DNA of 64,000 bases from Rhodoferax ferrireducens T118 (GTDB lineage: Bacteria; Pseudomonadota; Gammaproteobacteria; Burkholderiales; Burkholderiaceae_C). Below, one piece after another: positions 9,650 through 61,960 of the stretch. A program made the translations under genes and the position numbers. Under the pieces are notes generated by a model. It was given only the letters and a program-made list of their open reading frames with translations, did not search any database and was not told the DNA's origin. The stretch's first letter is position 1, and each line of letters starts with the position of its first letter. Location: NCBI RefSeq assembly GCF_000013605.1, contig NC_007901.1, forward strand, positions 186,001 through 250,000, given 5' to 3'.

Positions 9650-12313
9650 CTATTGCGCGCTGCGCGCTTCCACCCTATGCAAGCTTGCCACCATACGTTC
9701 CGGGTTGATTCTCAACCGGAATGATTCGCCCACCTTGGCGTTCAACTGGGAAAGCCTTGGCATCATCTTTGAAAGCAGAATCAGCCCTGATTCGCGTTTT
9801 GTGATAAAGGCAGGCGCAGCCTGATCTTCAAGCGCATATTCGCCGGCCGATAGCTTCCTTGAGAGAGACCCAGGCATGCCAATGAACTTGTGTTTGGTGT
9901 GGTACTCGCTCAGTTCAAACTCGAACGTGAAATAGCCTTTGTCGTCTATTGTCGCGTTCGTTCCTCTGTTGAACAATGAATCTGCAAATGAAGCTGCACG
10001 GGCCAGCGCATGCGGTTCAATATCGCACCCACAAATAGAGTACATCCCTTTGGCCGGTTGGACAAAACAGGGCGACTTGCCAAGCGCGTTTGCCGTTGCA
10101 ATGGTTGTCACGTCCAGCGTCCTGTCAACGTGAGCATCAATTTCGTATTTGACGGCCACTCCATCGTTCGCTCTGATCACTTTGATGATTTCAGCTTCCA
10201 CATCTGACAAGGCCCCTTGAAGCACGGTTTCATCGTTAGCGAAAAAATCATTCTTTTGAATTCGCGTTAGCCATGGTGTCCTCTGCAGAACCTTGGCAAG
10301 GATTACGGAGGGGGCCTCTATGACGAATGGCTTAGAGTCGTCTGCCTTGTAATAGCCGCGCTGGGACCGTCCCATGGCTGTGTAGATCTCGTCAATGTCC
10401 ACCTTGCGATCCGCCGCCGCCATTACCTTCTTCGTCACGTTCTGGAGCCGGTTATCACCAATATCGTTCCCGAACCAGAACCAGCCATCCGGCTCAGCCA
10501 GCCATTCAAAGCCGTCCACCATTTCAATCGCTGTTTTAACCTCCTTGATACTGACCTCTGTATCGAGTTCATCAGAGACAGCGCCGCAAACAAAATGAAT
10601 ATTGGCGGCACCACTCCCACGAATCATTTTCAGGGCCACTGATCTGGCGCTACGGATCAGGCTGTCATCTTCAATTTGCGAACCCGACTTGAGTACGTGG
10701 TCAAGGTTGGATTGGTTCTGGCTCCATGGGCTGCTTGCGAATTTCGCCAACTTTTTACCGAAAATCTCAACTGAGAAACGTTGCGCGCTTTGAATGGTCA
10801 ACTCTTCACCCAGCTTGTGCTTCAGTTCAATGTCGAGTTGTGCAACGGTAGCCGGAGCTAGCCGACTTATCTCGACGGCAAGTTCATCGAGCCTTGGCGT
10901 CGGCATCTTCAGACCATCGGCCCTCTCGGTCATCTTTTTCACGATCTGTCTGATTCTCTCCCGAGTGACGCCAACTCTCTTGCCACCACTTTCAAGCGTA
11001 GATTGGCCTTCCCCCTGAACGCCATAGCGCACCGAAAATATCTCTGCCCAAGACTTTTCAGTGGGCGTTAAGAGCCCCCATTCGGTTGTCCTGCGAAGAA
11101 TTGCCTTTCGGCTCAACCAGGCGGCTGCCGCCCTGATCTCTTTGGACACGGTATGCCATGTCACAACCGCATCCGCAGCGTAGGCCGATCCAGGGATGAG
11201 CACCGACGCAGGAAATGCAAGCGGCAGTGCTTCAATAGTCTGATCGCGCAGCCAACCCGCAGGCACCAGCAATGCTGCTTCCCATTTGGCCTCAACGTCG
11301 ATGTCGGGGAACTTCCTGAGAATTCTCTCGTTTTGAGCGAAGTTCGCCATGTTGAGCCCCGCCGCACTGGCGCACTCCGACACTTTCATGCCAAGGGCAA
11401 CCCTGCGCTTCTTGGCCCGCTCTGCCAGCGCTATTCGGTCATGCGTGGCCAGGGCCGACCGCTTGACGTAGGCCCCGTTCAAATACGCTAAAGGGAGTTC
11501 GGTCTCATTCACACGGGGGTCGCGCAGCCAGCCATTCTGCACTTTGAGCACGCCTTCCCACAAGTCTTCGACATGCTGATCCACCACCGCTCGCAGGCAA
11601 TATTCCATTTGGCTGAATTCTGCTTCTGAAACTCCAATTTGTTCGGCACATTTTTGGACCTTCAGTCCAAGCGCCTTTCGTCTCTTCTTTGCCCTTTGTG
11701 AGAGCACGATTCGCAGCTCTGGACTTTGTGGCCCTGACTGGGCCTCTAGCTCAGCAGCGAGTAATTTGATGTCTGGTACGGTCGGCGGCGTGCCCTGTCC
11801 GTACAGCAGCCAGTCTTGGGAGGCATGCAATACGCAGGCAATGGCCGAAACATGCCGCTTCTGGGCCTTTGGACTGCACCTCTTTTCCAGATAGGAATAG
11901 CTATTGACGGCGATCTCCAGTACCTTCGCCATTTGAGGTTTTGTGATGCCCATTTCTGTTCGCCTCATGCTTATGCGAACTGCGACTTCACACTCGTTTC
12001 CGGATGTGAAGACCTCTATCAGAGGAGGGTCTGGATCCTTCGCTCGCTCCGATGCTGGTGGAAGTTCACCCTCCCCCGTGCGAATCCATTCCTTAGGGGC
12101 GCTCAGTAGTATCGCGAGCTTTTCCAGGTGCCTGTTCTGCAGGTGTTCGCTGAAGTTGCGTTCCAGGTAGGCGTAGTTGCCCTTTGGAATGCCAATATCG
12201 TTTGCCACTTTGATCTTGGTAAGGCCCAAATCCAATCTACGGCTTCTCAGTCGAGCGGACGCTTGCACGCCACCGGAATCGTTTCTTGGTCTTCCCCCTA
12301 CGTTTTGACTCAT
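9650..12313 (-). CDS. 887-aa regulator: four XRE-type HTH units plus sigma-70 region-4-like motif
   Basis: Four helix-turn-helix units of the XRE/phage-repressor type sit in tandem at about residues 18-75, 110-165, 203-260 and 293-350. Units 3 and 4 are clear duplicates (RAKKRRKALGLKVQKCAEQ against RAKKRRVALGMKVSECASA, each followed by a GWLRD turn). At about 440-465 is GVTRERIRQIVKKM, matching the -35-binding helix signature of sigma-70 region 4.2. The remaining 420 residues contain possible winged helices (SDVEAEIIKVIRANDGVAVKYEI). This suggests a large multi-site DNA-binding protein that may act at or as part of RNA polymerase. An inverted repeat lies just upstream of its start. I know no described family with this layout. 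Confidence 0.7.
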   Translation of the reverse strand: MSQNVGGRPRNDSGGVQASARLRSRRLDLGLTKIKVANDIGIPKGNYAYLERNFSEHLQNRHLEKLAILLSAPKEWIRTGEGELPPASERAKDPDPPLIEVFTSGNECEVAVRISMRRTEMGITKPQMAKVLEIAVNSYSYLEKRCSPKAQKRHVSAIACVLHASQDWLLYGQGTPPTVPDIKLLAAELEAQSGPQSPELRIVLSQRAKKRRKALGLKVQKCAEQIGVSEAEFSQMEYCLRAVVDQHVEDLWEGVLKVQNGWLRDPRVNETELPLAYLNGAYVKRSALATHDRIALAERAKKRRVALGMKVSECASAAGLNMANFAQNERILRKFPDIDVEAKWEAALLVPAGWLRDQTIEALPLAFPASVLIPGSAYAADAVVTWHTVSKEIRAAAAWLSRKAILRRTTEWGLLTPTEKSWAEIFSVRYGVQGEGQSTLESGGKRVGVTRERIRQIVKKMTERADGLKMPTPRLDELAVEISRLAPATVAQLDIELKHKLGEELTIQSAQRFSVEIFGKKLAKFASSPWSQNQSNLDHVLKSGSQIEDDSLIRSARSVALKMIRGSGAANIHFVCGAVSDELDTEVSIKEVKTAIEMVDGFEWLAEPDGWFWFGNDIGDNRLQNVTKKVMAAADRKVDIDEIYTAMGRSQRGYYKADDSKPFVIEAPSVILAKVLQRTPWLTRIQKNDFFANDETVLQGALSDVEAEIIKVIRANDGVAVKYEIDAHVDRTLDVTTIATANALGKSPCFVQPAKGMYSICGCDIEPHALARAASFADSLFNRGTNATIDDKGYFTFEFELSEYHTKHKFIGMPGSLSRKLSAGEYALEDQAAPAFITKRESGLILLSKMMPRLSQLNAKVGESFRLRINPERMVASLHRVEARSAQ

Positions 12314-24007: not shown

Positions 24008-24511
24008 TCAGGCGCAAGGCCTGCTCCGTGTCTGGTGCTGGGATTGTCGGACTACCGGGGCTGCTGCACGTTTAATCCATGCACCAATCCCTCCCCCGTT
24101 TGCGGCTTTCGTTGAACTGAGTGCTGAGGGCACCCATTCTTGCCGCATCTGACAGGATGCAACTTCGAGCATGGTGCTCAAGTGCGCCACTGAGACATAC
24201 GCAATTGCGGGAGGCACGGCGTCCTTTGTTGGGAGTCCAAGAGCGAATCGAGCAGCTCTAACTTGCTCGATCAATTCGGCAATTGCATCGGCGAGAACAT
24301 CTGGCGACTTCCTTTGATACTCGTCCAGCGAAGTTTCCCAGCCCAGGAGCTTCCCAAGCAAAATGTCTTTGCAGACGGATGCATTGTTCTGCTTGAGCAT
24401 CACCGTCAAGGCGACATCTTGCATTCGAGGCGTCAACGCAGCCAGGACAGCCAAGGGCGATTTGGCAATTGCCGCGACCCCTCTGGTTTGAGTGGTTGTC
24501 TTCATTTTCAT
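24008..24511 (-). CDS. Hypothetical 167-aa helical protein
   Basis: ATG at 24511 follows GAAAGTGAT; a second ATG at 24505 is in frame. It is almost entirely helical (SPLAVLAALTPRMQDVALTVML, ILLGKLLGWETSLDEYQRKSPDVLADAIAELIEQ). No catalytic motif is visible. A structured leader (24525-24575) lies in the 76 bases upstream, so its translation is probably regulated. Confidence 0.55.
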   Translation of the reverse strand: MKMKTTTQTRGVAAIAKSPLAVLAALTPRMQDVALTVMLKQNNASVCKDILLGKLLGWETSLDEYQRKSPDVLADAIAELIEQVRAARFALGLPTKDAVPPAIAYVSVAHLSTMLEVASCQMRQEWVPSALSSTKAANGGGIGAWIKRAAAPVVRQSQHQTRSRPCA

Positions 24512-24524
24512 ATCACTTTCAAAA

Positions 24525-24575
24525 ATTAACGGACACATTGCCTTGCGGGCAGACGTGCCCGTCTGGGCTTGTCCA
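24525..24575 (-). promoter_or_regulatory. Structured 5' leader F of the GGG-loop family
   Basis: On the minus strand GGGCA and UGCCC close a small loop. The larger arm ACGGGCAC (plus 24555-24562) can instead pair with GUGUCCGU (plus 24529-24536), eight pairs with one wobble. The two pairings exclude each other. The gene start at 24511 lies 18 bases beyond. It belongs with seven similar leaders between here and 29.6 kb. Confidence 0.45.
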
Positions 24576-24587
24576 AATTTAGTTATG

Positions 24588-24887
24588 TCAAGGAACAACC
24601 TGATCAGTAATGTCGATATTTCCCCAGGCAATCTTTCCGTTGACATCGAGCCCATGGCTGCGCTCGATGTACCACTGCACTTGCTTGATGTCATGGCTGG
24701 CATACAAACGGTCGAGTGTCTTGTCCAGCCTGATGCAGGCATGTTCAGGACCAACATCACTAAGGAACATTGGCTCGAATTGCACTTCGGAGCCTCGCTC
24801 AGACTTAAGGTACAGGCCACGAACTTGGCCGGTGCTGCTTTCTTTGCGTCGCCGGACTTGGCGACGTATCTGTGTCAACAGATCCAT
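24588..24887 (-). CDS. Hypothetical 99-aa protein
   Basis: ATG at 24887 follows GGAGGAGGGAC, a very strong ribosome site. The N-terminus is a basic helix (LLTQIRRQVRRRKESSTGQ), then alpha/beta with HACIRLDKTLDRLYASHD and VQWYIERSHG. It overlaps the end of the transglutaminase-like gene by 13 bases. The family is unknown. Confidence 0.5.
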   Translation of the reverse strand: MDLLTQIRRQVRRRKESSTGQVRGLYLKSERGSEVQFEPMFLSDVGPEHACIRLDKTLDRLYASHDIKQVQWYIERSHGLDVNGKIAWGNIDITDQVVP

Positions 24888-25540
24888 GTCCCTCCTCCGC
24901 CATGAGATTGCTTTGACTTCAGGGCTTGTTCGACCAGTTCGTCACAATCGTGACGATTGTTGGGGCCAAAAACTTTGATTTCTGGCTGGTCAAAAACTAG
25001 CCTCAAAAGCTGTAGATTTCCCGCATCCACCTCCTTGACGAGACATTGTTCAATCATGAACTCGCGCAGGCCGGGGATTTCCTGATAGCACGCCACTCCT
25101 GCAGAATCTGCCTGTGCGACTTCCTTCAAGGTCAAGCTTTGCGCTCGCTCAAGTACCAGATAGGGTGGACACCACTCGACGGCGGTCTTTCCGCCATCGA
25201 AGGCGTCCAGTTGGGCCGCTTTGGTGCGAAGACTGTGCGTGCTGAAATCAATGATCTTCGTCCCCGATTCCAGCCACGCATGGTAGGCCAGGGCTTTTGC
25301 ACCTTGTGGCGCGAATCCACCAACGTTGGGTGAGTGCGTTATGACATCGCCATCACCCGGGCCAACGCGCCAAGCAGCCTCGCCTAAAACCAATCGGGTT
25401 GGTACGCCCTCTTGGTCGAGAAGAGTCTGGGCCATTTGGGCGTGCAACAGGCAGTCAGCTCCAAGTTGTGGACTGGCTCCTGTCATTAATTTTTGAAGCG
25501 CGCTGGCAAGGCGAGCGACGATTCCAAGTTGATTGGTCAT
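24875..25540 (-). CDS. Transglutaminase-like (papain-fold) protein
   Basis: The 221-residue protein has the spacing of a transglutaminase/NAT-type Cys-His-Asp triad: Cys30 at the start of a helix (GADCLLHAQMAQTLL), then EGVPTRLVLGEAAWRVG, His87 in AYHAWLES, and Asp98 in KIIDFSTHS. The family includes proteases, acyltransferases and phage or plasmid proteins of unknown target. The C-terminal 100 residues are unrecognised. It is the first gene of a transcription unit with its own promoter and structured leader (25541-25625). Confidence 0.55.
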   Translation of the reverse strand: MTNQLGIVARLASALQKLMTGASPQLGADCLLHAQMAQTLLDQEGVPTRLVLGEAAWRVGPGDGDVITHSPNVGGFAPQGAKALAYHAWLESGTKIIDFSTHSLRTKAAQLDAFDGGKTAVEWCPPYLVLERAQSLTLKEVAQADSAGVACYQEIPGLREFMIEQCLVKEVDAGNLQLLRLVFDQPEIKVFGPNNRHDCDELVEQALKSKQSHGGGGTWIC

Positions 25541-25625
25541 ATTCCATGCTCCGTTCGAAATGAGCCCAAGGAAGATGAACGTACCCAGTTGGGCGGTGTT
25601 CGCCCTGGGCAGTTGATTTTGATGA
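25541..25625 (-). promoter_or_regulatory. Structured 5' leader A of the GGG-loop family
   Basis: On the minus strand GGGCG-AACAC-CGCCC forms a hairpin nested inside CCCAG/CUGGG. The loop-side GAAC is complementary to GUUC downstream, and GCCC/GGGC (25564-25567 and 25607-25610) can close the whole. It ends just before the start at 25540. The same sequence with compensating differences occurs at 28072-28117, 27378-27424 and 29514-29560. Confidence 0.55.
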
Positions 25626-25735
25626 CCAGCTGGTGGTCTTGTTGAAAGGCCGGTTCTACGCTGTTAAACGGACCGGCAAATTGACGCAGAGGCCAAAGTC
25701 TGTTCATTCTAGCGCAACAATTGATGCTCGAACAA
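25598..25735 (-). repeat. Duplicated promoter block, copy 1
   Basis: About 135 bases are nearly identical to 28105-28243. Both contain the palindrome ACCAGCTGGT, a long AAAGGCCGGTTCTACGCT stretch, and on the minus strand a -10 box (TAGAAT here, 25706-25711) with TTGTTC 18 bases upstream (25730-25735). It drives the transglutaminase-like unit. The two copies differ by substitutions, not indels, over most of their length. Confidence 0.6.
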
Positions 25736-25831
25736 GCGTTCTCTGACCGTCCGTCAACTAAATGCCAGAGCCTTTTCGTCTCTCGTTATGAACTGTCTCG
25801 CCTCGCATTCCGATAGCGGCATTCTCCAATG

Positions 25832-25880
25832 AAAAAGCCCCGCCACCGTCCTTTTGAGGACAGCGCGGGGCTTGTGTTTT
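25832..25880 (-). terminator. Rho-independent terminator
   Basis: Read leftwards, AAGCCCCGC and GCGGGGCTT (plus 25835-25843 and 25865-25873) form a 9-base stem followed by a T run. It lies 48 bases beyond the stop of the winged-helix gene at 25928 and separates it from the next promoter. An inner GTCC/GGAC stem extends the hairpin. Confidence 0.75.
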
Positions 25881-25927
25881 TGAGATGGGTGCTTTGCCGG
25901 GCATCCTGCGATAGCGTTTGCGAACGC

Positions 25928-26212
25928 CTAAGCCTCCACTGGATCTTCCATGGCAACGGTGCGTCGCAACTGGCTGATGAAGTGTTCGCCAGTAGTGGTG
26001 ATGGTGAAGCAGTCGCTTTCCTGGATCACAAAGCCCCGCCGTTCCATGGACCCTGTGAGGGACTGGTACTGGGTCAATGTGCAGCCCTGATGCTGCAACG
26101 CAGCATACAGAGCCCCCGATGGCGCCCCCAATTCGCCGGCCGCCTGGATGGCCTCAAGCACTGCCAATCCCACCTTCTGTACTGCAAGCACCTGTTTTTT
26201 TGTCAGGTTCAT
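25928..26212 (-). CDS. Winged-helix-like regulator, 94 aa
   Basis: The residues GELGAPSGALYAALQHQGCTLTQYQSLTGSMERRGFVIQ and on have the helix-helix-recognition helix-wing pattern of a winged helix domain, with the wing FTITTTGEHFI. The N-terminus is a helix that could dimerise. Its ATG at 26212 overlaps the previous stop (ATGA). It may regulate the surrounding units, though no target site is evident. Confidence 0.55.
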   Translation of the reverse strand: MNLTKKQVLAVQKVGLAVLEAIQAAGELGAPSGALYAALQHQGCTLTQYQSLTGSMERRGFVIQESDCFTITTTGEHFISQLRRTVAMEDPVEA

Positions 26213-26976
26213 TTCAATTCGATCCCTTCAATTTCGTGTTTCAGAATTTCCCCGTGTGGAGAGCACCAGCCCTGAGGGCTTGGAGTGCCCTGCGGGTTGG
26301 GTAGAGCCGCCGAAGCTGCAACCGTCTTTGTCGCGTCGCGCCAGCTAATCGCGGCACACGCGCGCACCTGGTGGTGAGCGTCGTCAAGCAGGGCCTGACG
26401 GGCTTCGGCGGAAAGGATTCCCCAGCATTCCTCTGCGACTTTGAATCGGCCCATCCGGTCCAATTTTTCAAGGTCGTTAAGTTCGATGCTGCCCTTCTCT
26501 TTCAGGGCCGCAACAAAGCGATCTCGCGCCGCATAAAGGCGCTCTACTTCCCCCGGCTTGGGGCACCTGGGTTTCATGCCGGCCTCAATTTGGCGGGGTG
26601 TCAGGTCCGGCCCACAGTGCGTCACAGCACTCTGCTGTTGAGCGATCAGCAACTGTTTTTTGTAGAAGTCCAGTGCATCCACCAGGGCCGCGATGCGCCC
26701 TTTGAGAATCCTGCGAGTCATCTCGTCTTCGATGCGCTCACATTGTTCCAGCGTCGACGCTTTCATGGACTCAAGCGACATCCATTCGTCGAGATCAATC
26801 TTCAAGACCATGTCGGGTCGCAGCGCCAGCACATGGACGCGCGGACCGTCCATGAACTGGAACACGTTGGGCGACAAGGTTCCGCTGGGGTCTGGTCCGT
26901 AAAAACCTAGTTCCCCAACAGTTGGCATGGCTACCGGAGCCGCTTGTTGGTCCGTGATCTTCTTCGTTTTTCCCAT
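26209..26976 (-). CDS. Hypothetical 255-aa protein
   Basis: ATG at 26976 is behind GAAAGAACGG and structured leader G. A lightly charged N-terminal region of 60 residues precedes a long charged helical core (LEQCERIEDEMTRRILKGRIAALVDALDFYKKQLL), likely a coiled coil. Then come a CGPDLTPRQIEAGMKPRCPKPGE Cys pair and a helical C-terminal domain. No family is recognised. It is translationally coupled to the winged-helix gene. Confidence 0.55.
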   Translation of the reverse strand: MGKTKKITDQQAAPVAMPTVGELGFYGPDPSGTLSPNVFQFMDGPRVHVLALRPDMVLKIDLDEWMSLESMKASTLEQCERIEDEMTRRILKGRIAALVDALDFYKKQLLIAQQQSAVTHCGPDLTPRQIEAGMKPRCPKPGEVERLYAARDRFVAALKEKGSIELNDLEKLDRMGRFKVAEECWGILSAEARQALLDDAHHQVRACAAISWRDATKTVAASAALPNPQGTPSPQGWCSPHGEILKHEIEGIELK

Positions 26977-26989
26977 TCCGTTCTTTCAA

Positions 26990-27034
26990 AAAGTACGGGC
27001 ACCTTCCTTTGTCGGGCTTGGTGCCCGTCGGGGT
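26990..27034 (-). promoter_or_regulatory. Structured 5' leader G of the GGG-loop family
   Basis: On the minus strand CGGGC-ACCAA-GCCCG is a 5-base hairpin. The same 5' arm with its loop, ACGGGCACC (plus 27020-27028), is perfectly complementary over nine bases to GGUGCCCGU (plus 26995-27003). The CCGU of that arm also matches ACGG in the ribosome site of the gene at 26976. It lies directly after the stop of the gene at 27035. Confidence 0.5.
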
Positions 27035-27355
27035 TTAGATGTTGACTTGAAGCTTCAAATTCCCAGCCTTGCGGCCGTTCTTGATTGCTTTTGCCACTTG
27101 GTTGCGTAGACGCACCGCCTGACTGGTCCTGTAGGGAGCCAGCGCACGAAACGTGTCCAAACCTGAATGATCGGTTAGTCCAAATCTCGTCGCGAGTCCG
27201 TGCCCGGGTTGCGTTTGAACATTGCACATTGCGCGAGCAATGGCCGCTGTCTTGCAGTGAGCCCGATAAACTGGTCTACGCTGCCACTCTTCGAACGACA
27301 GTGCTGAAGCAGTACAGGCCAATTTGGCCGCTGCGTGGAAGTTGCTATTCGCCAT
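27035..27355 (-). CDS. Hypothetical 106-aa basic protein
   Basis: ATG at 27355 follows ACAGGAGTCC, an optimal ribosome site. The protein is basic (QRRPVYRAHCKTAAIARAM, RTSQAVRLRNQVAKAIKNGRKAGNLKLQ) and may bind nucleic acid. The rest is Ala-rich and helical. No family is recognised. Leader C precedes it and overlaps the end of the upstream reading frame. Confidence 0.5.
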   Translation of the reverse strand: MANSNFHAAAKLACTASALSFEEWQRRPVYRAHCKTAAIARAMCNVQTQPGHGLATRFGLTDHSGLDTFRALAPYRTSQAVRLRNQVAKAIKNGRKAGNLKLQVNI

Positions 27356-27761
27356 TTTTTGGACTCCTGTAGTTGAATCCCATGGAGGACGAACGTCCCA
27401 TGCGGGCGGTGTTCGTCCCAGGGCAGTGATTTTGATTTGCCGCTGCGAATTCCGAACCCAAGGTCGGTTGCTCACTGCGAGCCATGATTGGTACTGCGGC
27501 GCCGCGGTTGGCGGTCGCCGCACTGACGCGGTTGAACACAATACGTCGATACGACGACAGCGGGTTCTGGCCGATCTGGCTTGAATCGATTTCAACGACC
27601 CGGCAAGCCAACTGGTCCGGGTTCATTTGATGGTCGCTTGCATATTGCTGCGCATGCGCCGGAGCATCCTCGATTAGGCGCTCCGGGACGATGGCAACCA
27701 CACTTAGCACTTTCCATTTTCGGTGGGCGGTATCGTGCTTTACTTCGATGGTGTATGGCAC
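27345..27761 (-). CDS. Hypothetical 138-aa protein; C-terminus encoded through leader C
   Basis: GTG at 27761 follows CAAGGAGAATCAG. Residues 1-100 look like a normal small domain (KHDTAHRKWKVLSVVAIVPERL, helix, beta strands). The last 35 residues (from about NQNHCPGT) are a translation of leader C, and the frame stops 11 bases inside the next gene. Either the leader evolved inside a coding end, or the true gene is shorter in the ancestor and reads through. The family is unknown. Confidence 0.45.
   Translation of the reverse strand: MPYTIEVKHDTAHRKWKVLSVVAIVPERLIEDAPAHAQQYASDHQMNPDQLACRVVEIDSSQIGQNPLSSYRRIVFNRVSAATANRGAAVPIMARSEQPTLGSEFAAANQNHCPGTNTARMGRSSSMGFNYRSPKNGE
27356..27440 (-). promoter_or_regulatory. 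Structured 5' leader C of the GGG-loop family
   Basis: On the minus strand GGGACGAAC is followed by a CCGCCC partner and then by GUUCGUCC. GGACGAAC and GUUCGUCC are perfect complements over eight bases, while GGG can instead pair with the nearer CCC. The same arm continues as CCUCC, complementary to the GGAG of the ribosome site for the gene at 27355. The core spans 27378-27424. It lies inside the 3' end of the frame 27345-27761. Confidence 0.55.
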
Positions 27762-27767
27762 CTGATT

Positions 27768-27835
27768 CTCCTTGGGTGATGTGGGGAGAAATGCCGACGC
27801 GTACTGCGGGAATTTCTCCCGCAGGGGTTGATTTT
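27768..27835 (-). promoter_or_regulatory. Structured 5' leader E of the GGG-loop family
   Basis: The clearest member. On the minus strand an 8-base perfect stem (CUGCGGGA with UCCCGCAG) carries a five-base loop GAAAU. Downstream, AUUUCUCCC is perfectly complementary to GGGAGAAAU, that is, the stem's 5' GGGA plus the whole loop. The same downstream arm (UUCUCC) also matches the GGAGAA ribosome site of the gene starting at 27761. Plus coordinates of the arms are 27784-27792 and 27812-27820. Confidence 0.6.
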
Positions 27836-27839
27836 TGAA

Positions 27840-28046
27840 TTAGGCCGCGATCGCGCTTTTGTCTTTTGCGACTCCAAGCCACACCGCATCTCCTGCAGTG
27901 CGTGGAGCGCTGCCGTCAGCGTGCATTTGCATCCCGTACTGAGCACGGATCGCTTCAACAGTCATGGCATTGAACAGTCCTGGATACCTGGCTCGCGCAA
28001 GGTTTTCCCAGCCGACTCCCATTGCCGAAAATCGAACGATTTTCAT
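27840..28046 (-). CDS. Hypothetical 68-aa protein
   Basis: ATG at 28046 follows ACAGGAGTTC. The protein is a small domain (MKIVRFSAMGVGWENLARARY, then MTVEAIRAQYGMQMHADG, then DAVWLGVAKDKSAIAA) suggesting an alpha/beta fold with a Val-Trp strand. The family is unknown. It is the first gene after leader B and its promoter block. Confidence 0.5.
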   Translation of the reverse strand: MKIVRFSAMGVGWENLARARYPGLFNAMTVEAIRAQYGMQMHADGSAPRTAGDAVWLGVAKDKSAIAA

Positions 28047-28130
28047 AGTCGATTGAACTCCTGTAGTTGAAGCCCAAGGATGATGAACGTACCCATGCGG
28101 GCGTGTTCGCCCTGGGCAGTTGATTTTGAT
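28047..28130 (-). promoter_or_regulatory. Structured 5' leader B of the GGG-loop family
   Basis: Nearly the same as leader A. On the minus strand GGGCG-AACA-CGCCC sits inside CCCA/UGGG, GAAC is complementary to the later GUUC, and GCCC/GGGC closes the whole (28072-28075 with 28114-28117). The AUCAUCCU arm can pair with AGGA of the ribosome site for 28046. Differences from A keep the hairpin intact. Confidence 0.55.
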
Positions 28131-28243
28131 GACCAGCTGGTGGTCTTGTTGAAAGGCCGGTTCTACGCTCTGAGACGGACCGACAAATTGACACAGTGGT
28201 CAAAGTCCAGTCATTTTAGCGCTCAATTGGTGTCTCGTGCAGC
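28105..28243 (-). repeat. Duplicated promoter block, copy 2
   Basis: Second copy of the block at 25598-25735, with the same ACCAGCTGGT palindrome and the minus-strand -10 box TAAAAT (28213-28218). It drives the unit starting at 28046. The sequences between the two copies are unrelated, so this is a duplicated or recombined regulatory cassette rather than a gene duplication. Confidence 0.6.
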
Positions 28244-28293
28244 GGTTTTGGGCCGTCAGAAATTCCAAACGCAGGTTGAATCTGAGCCGCCAA

Positions 28294-28344
28294 AACACAA
28301 AGCCCCCAATCCACGCGAACGGGATTGGGGGCTTGTGATTTTGA
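28294..28344 (-). terminator. Rho-independent terminator
   Basis: ACAAAGCCCCCAATCC and GGATTGGGGGCTTGTG form a stem of about 15 bases with a 10-base loop, flanked by A- and T-rich tails on the two sides. It closes the unit ending at 28389 and, given the symmetric tails, may stop transcription in both directions. Confidence 0.8.
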
Positions 28345-28388
28345 AAATAGCGTGTCGGCCGCATGGCCTTTGGCGCTTTTTGGGTCAT

Positions 28389-28760
28389 TCAGTCGATGGC
28401 GCAAGACGCCAGGACGGCGAACTTGCGATCTTCGCTTGTGCTGACGCGGACCTCGTAGCGCACGCCGGTGGATACCTCGGAGCGCGCCTTTGGGGCCGGT
28501 TGACCAGGATGCTTTTTGGCCATGGCCTTGCGCATCAGGTTCACGAACGCCGCCTCGCGGTCGAGACGGTCCTGTTCGACCTTCTCTGCCAGGTCCACCA
28601 AGTGGTTCACCAGCAGATCCTTGCGTGCCAGTTGGCGCAGCTGCGCCCGTTCCTGCTTATGCACGATTTTCTTGGCGGCTGCCATGCTTTGGCCGCGCTT
28701 AGGCGAGAACCAATAGGCCAAGCTGCTGCTACGAACTGGGCTGTTGATAAGTTTCATCAT
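28389..28760 (-). CDS. Hypothetical 123-aa basic coiled-coil protein
   Basis: The start is at 28760 (MMKLINSPV) or at the next codon, behind CAGGACACAUC and leader H. A basic N-terminus (SPKRGQSMAAAKKIVHKQERAQLRQLARK) leads to a long charged helix (HLVDLAEKVEQDRLDREAAFVNLM) and a short beta end (GVRYEVRVSTSEDRKFAVLA). A nucleic-acid-binding role is plausible. The family is unknown. Confidence 0.5.
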   Translation of the reverse strand: MMKLINSPVRSSSLAYWFSPKRGQSMAAAKKIVHKQERAQLRQLARKDLLVNHLVDLAEKVEQDRLDREAAFVNLMRKAMAKKHPGQPAPKARSEVSTGVRYEVRVSTSEDRKFAVLASCAID

Positions 28761-28830
28761 GATGTGTCCTGAAAAGAAAGGGCACATCCCCACTGGGGTT
28801 GTGTCCCAGTGGGTGAAAAAAACCAAGCTC
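28761..28830 (-). promoter_or_regulatory. Structured 5' leader H of the GGG-loop family
   Basis: On the minus strand CACUGGG and CCCAGUG form a perfect 7-base stem around ACACAAC. The loop with the stem's GGG (GGGACACA) can instead pair with UGUGCCC downstream (one bulge). GAUGUG of that arm is also the exact complement of CACAUC, which lies between the ribosome site and the ATG at 28760. This is the same three-part logic as leader E with unrelated sequence. Confidence 0.5.
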
Positions 28831-28846
28831 AAGAACTGAGCCTATG

Positions 28847-28867
28847 AATTCGTCTTGTCGACGAATT
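28847..28867. promoter_or_regulatory. Inverted repeat, possible operator
   Basis: AATTCGTC and GACGAATT form a perfect 8-base inverted repeat around a 5-base spacer. It lies upstream of leader H and downstream of the 69-residue gene. No T run follows on either strand, so an operator is likelier than a terminator. Confidence 0.35.
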
Positions 28868-28974
28868 ATTCATGCGCGTTAAACGCCTGTCTTGGCAAAA
28901 CCGAACAGTGCAAGAACTTCCTGCACTACTTTTGGAAAGGACTCTTCAATGGCGGAAAACCATTTTGTTTCCTA

Positions 28975-29184
28975 TCAGTCGCTAGGCTGCCCAATCAAAA
29001 AATAGGGAGCCTCCACGCCGCATGGTGTATCACCATTGGCCTCAGTAACGATAACGAGGTGGAAGTCAGTGATGACCACTTGCGTGGGGTCCAGCGTCGG
29101 GCCACCCTCAATGCACACCCCCTCAACATCGCCGTAGGCGTCGTATGCCGCCTGTAGCTTCTCAATATATTTAAGCAGTTTCAT
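28975..29184 (-). CDS. Hypothetical 69-aa protein
   Basis: ATG at 29184 follows GAGGAAAAC. The sequence (MKLLKYIEKLQAAYDAYGDVEGV, GGPTLDPTQVVITDFHLVIV) is a helix followed by a beta hairpin. No recognised family. It lies 15 bases behind the 97-residue gene. Confidence 0.5.
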   Translation of the reverse strand: MKLLKYIEKLQAAYDAYGDVEGVCIEGGPTLDPTQVVITDFHLVIVTEANGDTPCGVEAPYFLIGQPSD

Positions 29185-29199
29185 TTCAGAGTTTTCCTC

Positions 29200-29493
29200 T
29201 CAAAAGCGTTGCTTCAAAAATTGACGATAAAACGGCTTATTGTCCGTTTTGGCCGATGACTTAACGCCTTCAACTTCCACGTATTTACCGTCCCGCAAAG
29301 ACACGCTGAATGAGGCACCCGTTTCAGGGTCAATCACGTCAGCCTTGCCAAGCACTTCTATTGCCGCTTTCAGGCGCATCCGTCCATCGATAACCTGTGA
29401 CACACGGCCATCCAGGCGAACGATATTGACTGCGGCGCTCGCACGGGCGTTCGCCGGATTGTTTTCAATATTCCCTAAAGGCGTAGAGTTCAT
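29200..29493 (-). CDS. Hypothetical 97-aa protein
   Basis: ATG at 29493 follows AAAGGAAATC and leader D. A polar N-terminus leads to a beta-rich region (AVNIVRLDGRVSQVIDGRM), a helix (RLKAAIEVLG) and another beta hairpin (ASFSVSLRDGKYVEVEG). This could be a small OB- or SH3-type domain. The family is unknown. Confidence 0.5.
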   Translation of the reverse strand: MNSTPLGNIENNPANARASAAVNIVRLDGRVSQVIDGRMRLKAAIEVLGKADVIDPETGASFSVSLRDGKYVEVEGVKSSAKTDNKPFYRQFLKQRF

Positions 29494-29575
29494 AACAGAT
29501 TTCCTTTGAATAGACCCCAGGAAGATGAACGTACCCTTTGGGGCGAAGTTCGCCCAGGGCAGTTGTTGAATCCTG
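29494..29575 (-). promoter_or_regulatory. Structured 5' leader D of the GGG-loop family
   Basis: On the minus strand GGGCGA-ACU-UCGCCC forms the hairpin, enclosed by CCCU/AGGG where leaders A and B have CCCA/UGGG, a compensating change. GAAC is again complementary to downstream GUUC, and UUCCU of that arm is complementary to AGGAA of the ribosome site. The core spans 29514-29560. An extra hairpin (CCTGATC and GATCAGG) lies upstream at 29573-29590. Confidence 0.55.
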
Positions 29576-29664
29576 ATCAGAGATCAGGCCAACCCGGTGA
29601 AGGGTCGGGGTTTTGAAATGCTGACACAAGGTCAACGAATTGTGCGTCAGCACAAAGTTCAAAA

Positions 29665-60784: not shown

Positions 60785-60919
60785 ATCGAATCATCAACAT
60801 TAAATTTGGGGAACTCTTCATACAAAAGCGTTCTTTTTGATCTGAATTCGATGGGTTTGTTTCCTGAAAGGCTTTATCAAACTGCCAGAATTGAACAAGT
60901 CCAACACACAACTGTATTT

Positions 60920-61960
60920 ATGTCCAAGACACCACCGACCTTTCGCGCGCTAGACCTTGGTTTTGGCTTCACCAAATTCTCAAAAGGCCACTATCTGCAA
61001 GACGGAAGCCTTGAGGTCTCGGCTTTTCCCAGCTACGCCGCCGCCGCAGTCAACTTCTCGATTGGCGCGGGCGTCATGACGGACTTGAGCATCGTGAAGG
61101 TCTCCGTGGATGATGAGCACTTTCTCGTTGGCGAGGACGTGCGTAACGCTGCGGATGGCGTTGGCCGCCAGATGCTTGAATCGACCTTCTTCACGTCAAG
61201 TCAATACATCGCCCTGGCACGCGGGGCCATGGGATTCATGAACGTACCAAACCATGGCGAAGTTGATTCCCTTGTTATGGGATTACCGCTCAATATCTTC
61301 CGCGATCAGTCCATTGTCGATCACGTCGAGGCGGCAATGAAAGGGACCCATCTCGTGCCCGACATCACGAAAAATAGCGGTGTCGAACGCACGATCCTTG
61401 TCAAAAATGTAAGCATCATCCCCCAAGTCGTCGGAAGTCTGGTTGCAATGTCCCGGGATGCGGGCTTAATGCAAAAGGTTAACGAACAACACAATCTCAC
61501 CATCGATGTGGGATATGGCACCCTGCTATGGCTTGTCTCTGATGGCTTTACGCCGGTGCCAGCCCGAAGCAATGGCAACATGGGCGGGGTGTCCAGCCTG
61601 CTTCAAAAGATCATTCGCTCTATCGACCCGAGCGCCGTCAGCAGTATCAATATCATGGACCGGCTCGATAAGGCACTGCTTGAAGACAAGGCCAGCATCT
61701 TGATCAACGGCGCGGAAGTGGAGGTTGCCAAGTACCACCGTCAGCTTGCCTCGGCGGCACGTGAAAACCTTACCGAGATGATCCGCTCAATCGGCACCAA
61801 GGCTGACATTGACAACGTCTTTCTGACAGGCGGCGGGGCACATCTCTACAAAGACGCAATCGCCGCCGTTTTTCCAGGACGCCAGGTGCACATCGCGTCT
61901 AAAGGCTCTCGGTTCACCAATGTACGGGGATTTCAGTTCCTGGCCGAAACTGAGGACTGA
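60920..61960 (+). CDS. ParM/StbA-like actin-type partition ATPase
   Basis: The start at 60920 (MSKTPPTFRALDLGFGF) has no extra upstream residues. The 346-residue protein has the actin-fold motifs: phosphate-1 ALDLGFGFTKF (about residue 10), phosphate-2 LTIDVGYGTLLW (about 195), and adenosine motif FLTGGGAHLYKDAI (about 310). ParM-type proteins form filaments that push plasmid copies apart; actin-like protein D of PRTRC cassettes is an alternative. The palindrome set upstream supports partition. Confidence 0.75.
   Translation: MSKTPPTFRALDLGFGFTKFSKGHYLQDGSLEVSAFPSYAAAAVNFSIGAGVMTDLSIVKVSVDDEHFLVGEDVRNAADGVGRQMLESTFFTSSQYIALARGAMGFMNVPNHGEVDSLVMGLPLNIFRDQSIVDHVEAAMKGTHLVPDITKNSGVERTILVKNVSIIPQVVGSLVAMSRDAGLMQKVNEQHNLTIDVGYGTLLWLVSDGFTPVPARSNGNMGGVSSLLQKIIRSIDPSAVSSINIMDRLDKALLEDKASILINGAEVEVAKYHRQLASAARENLTEMIRSIGTKADIDNVFLTGGGAHLYKDAIAAVFPGRQVHIASKGSRFTNVRGFQFLAETED

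Follow-up and report, generated by a model that had tools for sequence, protein, structure and literature searches.

A family of translational leaders with the apparent anatomy of a two-state switch, real and conserved as judged from sequence and uncatalogued as far as checked, is represented on a 64,000-nucleotide stretch of Rhodoferax ferrireducens T118 (the window; bases 186001-250000 of C1, a 257,447-base contig in a genome of two contigs). Between 24.5 and 29.6 kb of the window lie eight minus-strand leaders, A to H, each ahead of one of eight open reading frames (ORFs). C1 is taken as a plasmid because the PRTRC B gene and the PRTRC ParB gene are both found on it. The pairings that define the leaders are conserved beyond chance, are RNA-like and adjoin start codons on several plasmids. 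A sequence-only reading of this DNA had proposed a family of at least eight such elements; all eight cores lie where it placed them, and the family is larger than first seen, with further members on other plasmids and, by eye, about seven more clear leaders on C1 (C1:32086, 61608, 71308, 123786, 125452, 131146 and 137608).

In the transcript the leaders share the order CCC-a-GGG-X-CCC-a'-GGG-X'-CCC, often followed by a U-rich stretch, and then the Shine-Dalgarno (SD) sequence and the start codon; every inner GGG or CCC run of this chain has two possible partners. We call GGG-X the decoy, the downstream arm X'-CCC T, and the ribosome site RBS. The hairpin with its GGG and the complementary downstream arm had been described from the sequence alone and are borne out, while one element had been missed, the CCC run ahead of the GGG, which extends the first hairpin; the run after the GGG is able to re-pair. 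T is complementary beyond chance to the SD region and is complementary also to the upstream decoy, with a moderate case for mutual exclusion of the two. Each leader is probably a bistable translational control element, one of a multi-copy family on large Burkholderiales plasmids, as sequence and folding models together suggest. In the OFF state the first hairpin (CCC-a-GGG with CCC-a'-GGG, loop X) would form and the free T would pair with the SD and the bases up to the start codon. In the ON state T would invade the first hairpin through its loop and pair with GGG-X, leaving the SD open, and the released CCC-a'-GGG could close as a small inner hairpin. Transcription reaches T ahead of the SD, so that the ON helix may arise first and later yield to OFF. 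Both states would be populated in cells and translation would follow the state, nascent transcripts being translated and finished ones silent unless something holds the ON form.

The evidence for the family comes from complementarity measured against permuted partners. Leaders were picked without regard to complementarity, as CCC..GGG..CCC..GG..CC runs at set spacing followed by a start codon with an SD-like motif within 9-40 nt. This rule gave 105 leaders: 24 on the plasmid of R. ferrireducens itself, 25 on plasmid 1 and 16 on plasmid 2 of Polaromonas sp. JS666, 15 on pMOL28, 13 from Comamonadaceae OS-4, and four each from CJ2, Hydrogenophaga BPS33 and Curvibacter. JS666 plasmid 1 (nearly), its plasmid 2 and pMOL28 were scanned whole, and CJ2, OS-4 and BPS33 in part; neighbours were merged and no other row was removed, and chance and palindromic opposite-strand matches remain inside the set. 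No permutation in 10,000 equalled the real partners for the first hairpin (z -8.5), for GGGX with X'CC (z -13.4), for X with X' alone (z -8.5) or for X'CC with the RBS (z -5.1). When the sequence family that we call type I (see below) was left out, the remaining 94 leaders gave z values of -9.5, -12.3, -7.4 and -5.7, respectively. Taken set by set, GGGX:X'CC was matched in 0/10,000 permutations for the R. ferrireducens plasmid, JS666 plasmid 1 and OS-4 and in 3/10,000 for pMOL28, and X'CC:RBS in 1/10,000 for pMOL28 and 36/10,000 for JS666 plasmid 1; the CJ2, BPS33 and Curvibacter sets were too few for separate tests. Loop X was also compared directly with the RBS across the 105 leaders, by its likeness to the reverse-complemented RBS partner, and this relation was not significant (1586/10,000). 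Eleven stretches of the chromosome (220 kb) yielded four places that fit the rule, with no significant relation among their segments. Thirty-three leaders collected by a hairpin-plus-T descriptor gave 0/10,000 permutations as good for T:RBS.

The leaders ahead of ParB genes allow the same comparison among orthologues. Upstream regions were gathered from 28 records or loci, nine of them through DNA similarity to the pHG1 leader region, which biases these towards presence, together with eight plasmids and the eleven loci that passed the family cut-off in a set of 399 genomes of the order. Judged by eye, 21 of the 28 have such a leader ahead of ParB, in Cupriavidus, Burkholderia, Paraburkholderia, Polaromonas JS666 plasmid 1, Hydrogenophaga BPS33 and further genomes, and seven lack it: CJ2, EbN1, Sphingobium, the R. 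ferrireducens plasmid itself (L115) and the loci L121, L123 and L124. T and the RBS change together, GGGTTCCC standing with GGAGAACCC in Cupriavidus, GCAGGTTCCC with GGAGAACCTGC in pBVIE02, GCGGGTTCCC with GGAGACCCGC in Paraburkholderia, TTGTGTCCCC with GGAGACACAA in L117 and TTGGGTTCCC with AACCCAA in JS666. Fifteen of these leaders were used for tests, five near-copies of the Cupriavidus type (L146, L151, pHG1, pMOL28 and L114) and L122 having been left out. T:RBS scored -12.47 with its own partners against -8.87 with permuted ones (0/20,000; z -5.6) and decoy:T scored -14.54 against -11.17 (0/20,000; z -4.9), and with the 11 diverged leaders each comparison again gave 0/20,000. Over 13 distinct rows, 85.5% of decoy:T cells are paired, 15 cells are changed on both sides against 6.7 in shuffled rows, and covariation is 0.380 against 0.208 (0/500), with slid alignments reaching at most 0.172. 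Other measures for decoy:T are less striking (pairs in which both sides change, 149/500; further pair types, 28/500). A MAFFT alignment of these regions was poor in T and the RBS and hence was not used.

Within the window, the eight leaders show the same two relations on a smaller scale. With segments cut by eye, permuted partners matched the real ones in 25/20,000 cases for decoy:T and 191/20,000 for T:RBS, and among six unlike leaders (A, C, D, E, G and H) in 78/20,000 and 164/20,000, respectively. The decoy:T duplex is strong in A, C, D, E and G (-10.6 to -16.7 kcal/mol) and lies at about -7 kcal/mol in B, F and H, where it consists of GAAC:GTTC plus interrupted pairs; T:RBS energies are -10.4 to -11.1 in B, D, E and G, -5.3 to -6.4 in C, F and H, and -3.3 in A. 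The sequence-only reading had stressed that the sequences differ while the pairings are kept. The pairings are indeed kept, and covariation in a wider set, whose lack had been named beforehand as a refutation, is found for decoy:T and T:RBS; the first hairpin is supported across the 105 leaders and only weakly within the ParB orthologues. B, D, F and H are paralogues and cannot count as four independent witnesses.

Counts are a weak argument in GC-rich DNA, and the permutations of complementarity are the evidence. The descriptor (GGG in the 5' arm of a hairpin plus an arm complementary to the GGG and loop) had 2 and 6 matches per strand on C1 against 0-2 per strand in three C1 shuffles, and two of the six are chance-like. 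Near starts, the run pattern exceeded three block shuffles on the R. ferrireducens plasmid (24 vs 3-8), OS-4 (13 vs 0-5), pMOL28 (15 vs 5-9), JS666 plasmid 1 (25 vs 8-11), Curvibacter (4 vs 0-2) and BPS33 (4 vs 1-3), with no excess on CJ2 (4 vs 3-4), JS666 plasmid 2 (16 vs 15-18) or the chromosome (4 vs 4-9). Regardless of position, the pattern was rarer than in shuffled DNA on JS666 plasmids 1 and 2, pMOL28, CJ2 and the chromosome. A looser, scored scan of upstream regions gave at least as many matches in shuffled as in real DNA on pMOL28, pBVIE02, JS666 plasmid 2, CJ2, Curvibacter, EbN1, Sphingobium and the chromosome, and is too loose to part real from shuffled in several replicons. Leaders are seen on large Burkholderiales plasmids, pHG1 and pBVIE02 included; per 49 kb these had 10 and 6 scan matches, most of which convince by eye, and shuffled upstream regions had 6 and 7. 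A Pseudomonas brassicacearum plasmid and pQBR103, at 49 kb each, had 0 and 1. The matches in Sphingobium (4) and EbN1 (2) look like chance. In the plasmid collection, 208 records hold a protein related to PRTRC B of R. ferrireducens, 128 of them along most of its length. CJ2 has PRTRC, yet hardly any leader in the 102 kb examined, so that leader and PRTRC are to be regarded as associated, not tied.

The complementarity could in principle serve DNA rather than RNA, with decoy, T and RBS as half-sites for DNA-binding proteins, since GGGX and X'CCC form inverted repeats. We regard this as extremely improbable: X varies between leaders of a single plasmid, and wobble pairs, which a DNA site would not favour, are in excess. 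In decoy:T helices of 29 leaders, picked on Watson-Crick pairs only, G-U outnumbers A-C by 19 to 5 (8 to 1 in the ParB rows). Beyond the GGG the counts are 11 and 5, against 13.4 and 12.9 with permuted partners, and 13/2000 permutations were as high. As G-U stands above A-C, the decoy:T pairing looks like RNA of this strand.

The same helices bear on whether the two upstream pairings exclude each other or coexist. In an H-type pseudoknot the first hairpin and X:X' would stand together as a compact fold that gates the RBS, as in IncI repZ or pseudoknot riboswitches. The significant complementarity of X:X' without the GGG and CCC runs (z -8.5, as above) fits such a fold, and the loop length, by estimate, suits a second stem of 4-6 bp. 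The complementarity nevertheless enters the hairpin stem, extending into it in 35% of 60 leaders against 23% for permuted partners (15/5000), so that the states are mutually exclusive at least in part. In addition, 18 leaders have at least six contiguous decoy:T pairs; the hairpin has at least 5 bp in 15 of these and at least 8 bp in eight, and in four of the eight at most 4 nt are left to bridge it, which we judge too short. These two arguments, stem overlap and short bridge, favour exchange with moderate strength; a pseudoknot as the general arrangement is improbable, and mixed use is possible.

Predicted folding was examined by Boltzmann sampling of 23 leaders, the 15 ParB leaders and the eight of the window, in models that ignore pseudoknots, proteins and ribosomes. 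At full length the mean probability that T pairs with the RBS was 0.80 at 37 °C, and when the RNA was cut right after T the mean probability of T pairing upstream was 0.78. Among the window leaders at full length, B, E, F, G and H are predicted OFF and A, C and D ON. Of the 105 leaders, 48 are modelled as mostly OFF and 34 as mostly upstream-paired. On these models a good number of leaders, though not every one, look kinetically bistable. A temperature switch or RNA thermometer was rejected, the mean modelled probability of T:RBS being almost flat from 0.81 at 10 °C to 0.78 at 55 °C. That flatness and the OFF prediction for most of the 23 leaders would suit static attenuation, in which the leaders merely keep translation low through T:RBS and the decoy is a folding aid, with no regulated switching; it would also agree with this that a search for three families of RNA-binding proteins (see below) turned up none common to the plasmids. 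A static sequestering hairpin, though, needs no conserved decoy, and in the ParB leaders the covariation of decoy:T is close in strength to that of T:RBS (z -4.9 and -5.6). We therefore hold static attenuation to be unlikely.

Several results weigh against bistable elements as a general description. Leaders A, C and D are modelled ON at both lengths and G OFF; the ParB leader of P10 is mostly ON at full length and that of L118 mixed, and those of EM10 and JS666 show no upstream pairing when cut after T (0.16 and 0.09). In the 105-leader set 65 pair upstream when cut, and only 31 shift from mostly upstream to mostly RBS. The 16 leaders of JS666 plasmid 2 gave no signal for hairpin, X:X' or RBS (5214/10,000 for the last) and at most a trace for GGGX:X'CC (389/10,000), and X'CC:RBS was not significant in the sets from the R. 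ferrireducens plasmid (1023/10,000) and OS-4 (4819/10,000). In the ParB rows covariation of the first hairpin is weak, 0.159 against 0.120 (79/500), with pairing at 77.3% against 72.4% (21/500), and in these alignments the T register and the hairpin were placed by best pairing, which leans towards pairing. Finally, T against the start region was not significant in 12 type I leaders (1186/20,000), because T hardly varies in that set.

As a first guess, the balance between the two states would be shifted by a general factor of the host that acts on the invariant CCC/GGG frame; a host RNA chaperone, ribosome traffic, or a plasmid factor or ligand would be other candidates. Among the three families sought, ProQ, CsrA and Hfq, none is an RNA-binding protein common to the plasmids. 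The ProQ family is encoded on the chromosome of R. ferrireducens and on none of seven plasmid records; Hfq is encoded on the chromosome and on one of the seven, pOS401 (L025:8929-9174 in AP026971.1, 67.2 bits). CsrA had no match in the R. ferrireducens genome or the seven plasmid records, several leader loops lack GGA, and a CsrA/RsmA-regulated leader was set aside. Control by a counter-transcribed RNA that binds loop X and blocks X:X' has a precedent in Inc RNA and repZ (PMC9977716). Here every one of the many private codes would require an antisense RNA of its own, and with ProQ/FinO proteins on none of the seven records we consider it very unlikely.

The private code of X, X' and RBS in each leader implies that each would act on itself and not on its neighbours. 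If the leaders are bistable elements, they might, as a tentative and rather doubtful extension, make up a plasmid-wide regulon of self-addressed RNA switches, with private codes on a constant frame, in which a single general signal, such as arrival in a new cell or a break in the coupling of translation to transcription, could switch all of them open or closed without cross-talk, nascent transcripts being translated and released ones silent.

The window leaders fall into two types. Type I (B, D, F and H) is one sequence family, whose identity to B over 51 nt ungapped is 63% for D, 65% for F and 86% for H, B and F being 91% identical over 120 nt; type II (A, C, E and G) has the layout in common and not the sequence. 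Type I relatives occur on JS666 plasmid 1 (two), pOS401 of OS-4 (two strong, others weaker), a Curvibacter delicatus contig and a Rhodoferax metagenome-assembled genome. By eye, an upstream GACC..GGTC hairpin is shared by B, F and the strong relatives, and H has GATC..GATC. The exact type I pattern has three matches in the R. ferrireducens genome and, among 398 others of the family, was found in one; in the named genomes it picks out 13 stretches, three of them real by sequence and context (L033, L036 and L041). One stretch in viral contigs was judged not to be a leader. T of type I reads GUUCAU..UCC and in several members its complementarity takes in the start codon (AUGAAC); T of the second JS666 leader, with GUUCAC, faces the GUG start (GUGAAC) of a 91-residue ORF. 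A leader peptide was ruled out by a one-base difference inside the leader between B and F, which shifts the frame.

The eight leaders all lie on the minus strand, and the coordinates that follow are those of the window. Type I leader H (29485..29585) has its CCC at 29557-29559, decoy GGGCGAACTTC at 29545-29555, T at 29520-29535 and ATG at 29493 (ORF 29200-29493), and scores 71.2 bits with the covariance model R1, for which it was a training sequence. Leader F (28038..28145) carries the GACC..GGTC hairpin at 28131-28145, the decoy at 28102-28112, T at 28078-28093 and ATG at 28046 (ORF 27840-28046), and leader B (25531..25638) the hairpin at 25624-25638, the decoy at 25595-25605, T, identical to that of H, at 25570-25585 and ATG at 25540 (ORF 24875-25540). 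In leader D (27346..27438) the GACC hairpin was not seen; decoy GGGACGAACACC is at 27408-27419, T GGACGTTCGTCCTCC at 27384-27398 and ATG at 27355 (ORF 27035-27355), and the minimum free energy (MFE) fold is decoy:T. The ORF after leader E spans all of leader D and stops just beyond the D start codon; ribosomes on this ORF could thus open D. Two G+C-rich inverted-repeat hairpins, terminator-like by eye, lie at 28291-28343 and 25823-25885 ahead of leaders F and B, and after each of them comes one and the same 120-base block (91% identity); this suggests that the genes after F and B have their own promoters.

For type II, leader G (28752..28820) has hairpin CCCACTGGG/CCCCAGTGGG, a decoy at 28797-28807, T GGATGTGCCC at 28780-28789, RBS CAGGACACATC and a start near 28760 (ORF 28389-28760), its SD being hidden in the MFE fold. 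Leader E (27753..27830) has hairpin CTGCGGGA/TCCCGCAG, decoy GGGAGAAATTCC at 27809-27820, T GCATTTCTCCC at 27784-27794, RBS AAGGAGAATC and a GTG start at 27761 (ORF 27345-27761). Leader C (26968..27035) has decoy GGGCACCAAG at 27017-27026, T AGGTGCCCGT at 26995-27004 and ATG at 26976 (ORF 26209-26976). In leader A (24503..24570), with decoy GGGCACGTC at 24552-24560, T CAATGTGTCCGTT at 24528-24540 and ATG at 24511 (frame 24008-24511, within a listed ORF 24008-24820), decoy:T is the MFE fold and T:RBS is weak. A Pfam scan of seven of the eight ORFs behind leaders found nothing above cut-off; the ORF behind leader B falls just short of it with Transglut_core3 (24.9 of 26 bits). Elsewhere the window encodes an 887-residue protein that has helix-turn-helix domains and matches sigma-70 region 4 weakly (9650-12313, minus strand) and an actin-like protein, PF17989 ALP_N (60806-61960, plus strand). 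The matches of the former, sigma-like protein and of a winged-helix-like protein (25928-26212) to their families are weak or partial, and nothing ties either to the leaders.

Large Burkholderiales plasmids carry many small genes annotated as no more than hypothetical, and a leader shared by a number of them, the PRTRC ParB gene included, would give a handle on when they are used. With varied codes on a constant frame, the leaders also offer a ready-made collection of orthogonal translational switches, in which the effect of co-transcriptional RNA folding on protein output could be studied. Transcript-start data from tagRNA-seq are published for Cupriavidus metallidurans CH34 (PMC7563307) and include pMOL28, which has leaders ahead of ParB and of the gene after L061:13691.

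The claim that no such plasmid leader family had been described holds for Rfam 15 and the literature searched, with one exception, a candidate still to be compared. No Rfam 15 family reached its cut-off on any window leader or on 49-kb stretches of pHG1, pBVIE02 and pMOL28, and 12 ParB loci gave nothing up to E 2. A SorX match opposite leader C (17 bits of 46.6, E 3.4) is sub-threshold and, like the other sub-threshold matches, was judged to be chance. A riboswitch was likewise rejected, no conserved ligand-binding core being seen and no Rfam class matching the leaders at cut-off. The exception is Burkholderiales-1, listed in a 2010 survey (Weinberg 2010, PMC2864571) without an Rfam accession and as uncertain both as an RNA and as cis-regulatory; like the leaders it is a candidate structured RNA of Burkholderiales, and it may or may not be the same. 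The sbcD RNA (RF01757) is a likewise structured Burkholderiales candidate on two plasmids that also carry leaders, pHG1 (L109:7059-7213) and pMOL28 (L061:32219-32373). It differs in sequence and fold, is 155 nt long and occupies sites without these leaders; none of its matches falls in the window, and identity with it was discarded.

Other parallels concern mechanism. In translational riboswitch platforms the SD and an upstream competitor are alternative partners of one arm (anti-SD and anti-anti-SD), and the leaders have such an arm too; here, however, loop and competitor vary, many copies with private codes share a plasmid and no ligand core is seen. The lambda cIII and cspA leaders likewise can fold in two ways, with the start site hidden in one; they serve single genes and are linked to temperature or RNase III, whereas the leaders described here are almost temperature-insensitive in models. 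In the IncI/IncB repZ leader a GG-rich loop pairs with a downstream arm. Binding of Inc RNA disrupts a 5' pseudoknot needed for repZ translation (PMC9977716), and the likeness to the present family (with Inc RNA and FopA on the repZ side) is that of a plasmid leader whose 5' structure is needed for translation. The repZ leader is a single copy that serves replication control through an antisense RNA and a pseudoknot, whereas the present leaders stand ahead of many genes, would work by strand exchange and have a T that is complementary also to the RBS.

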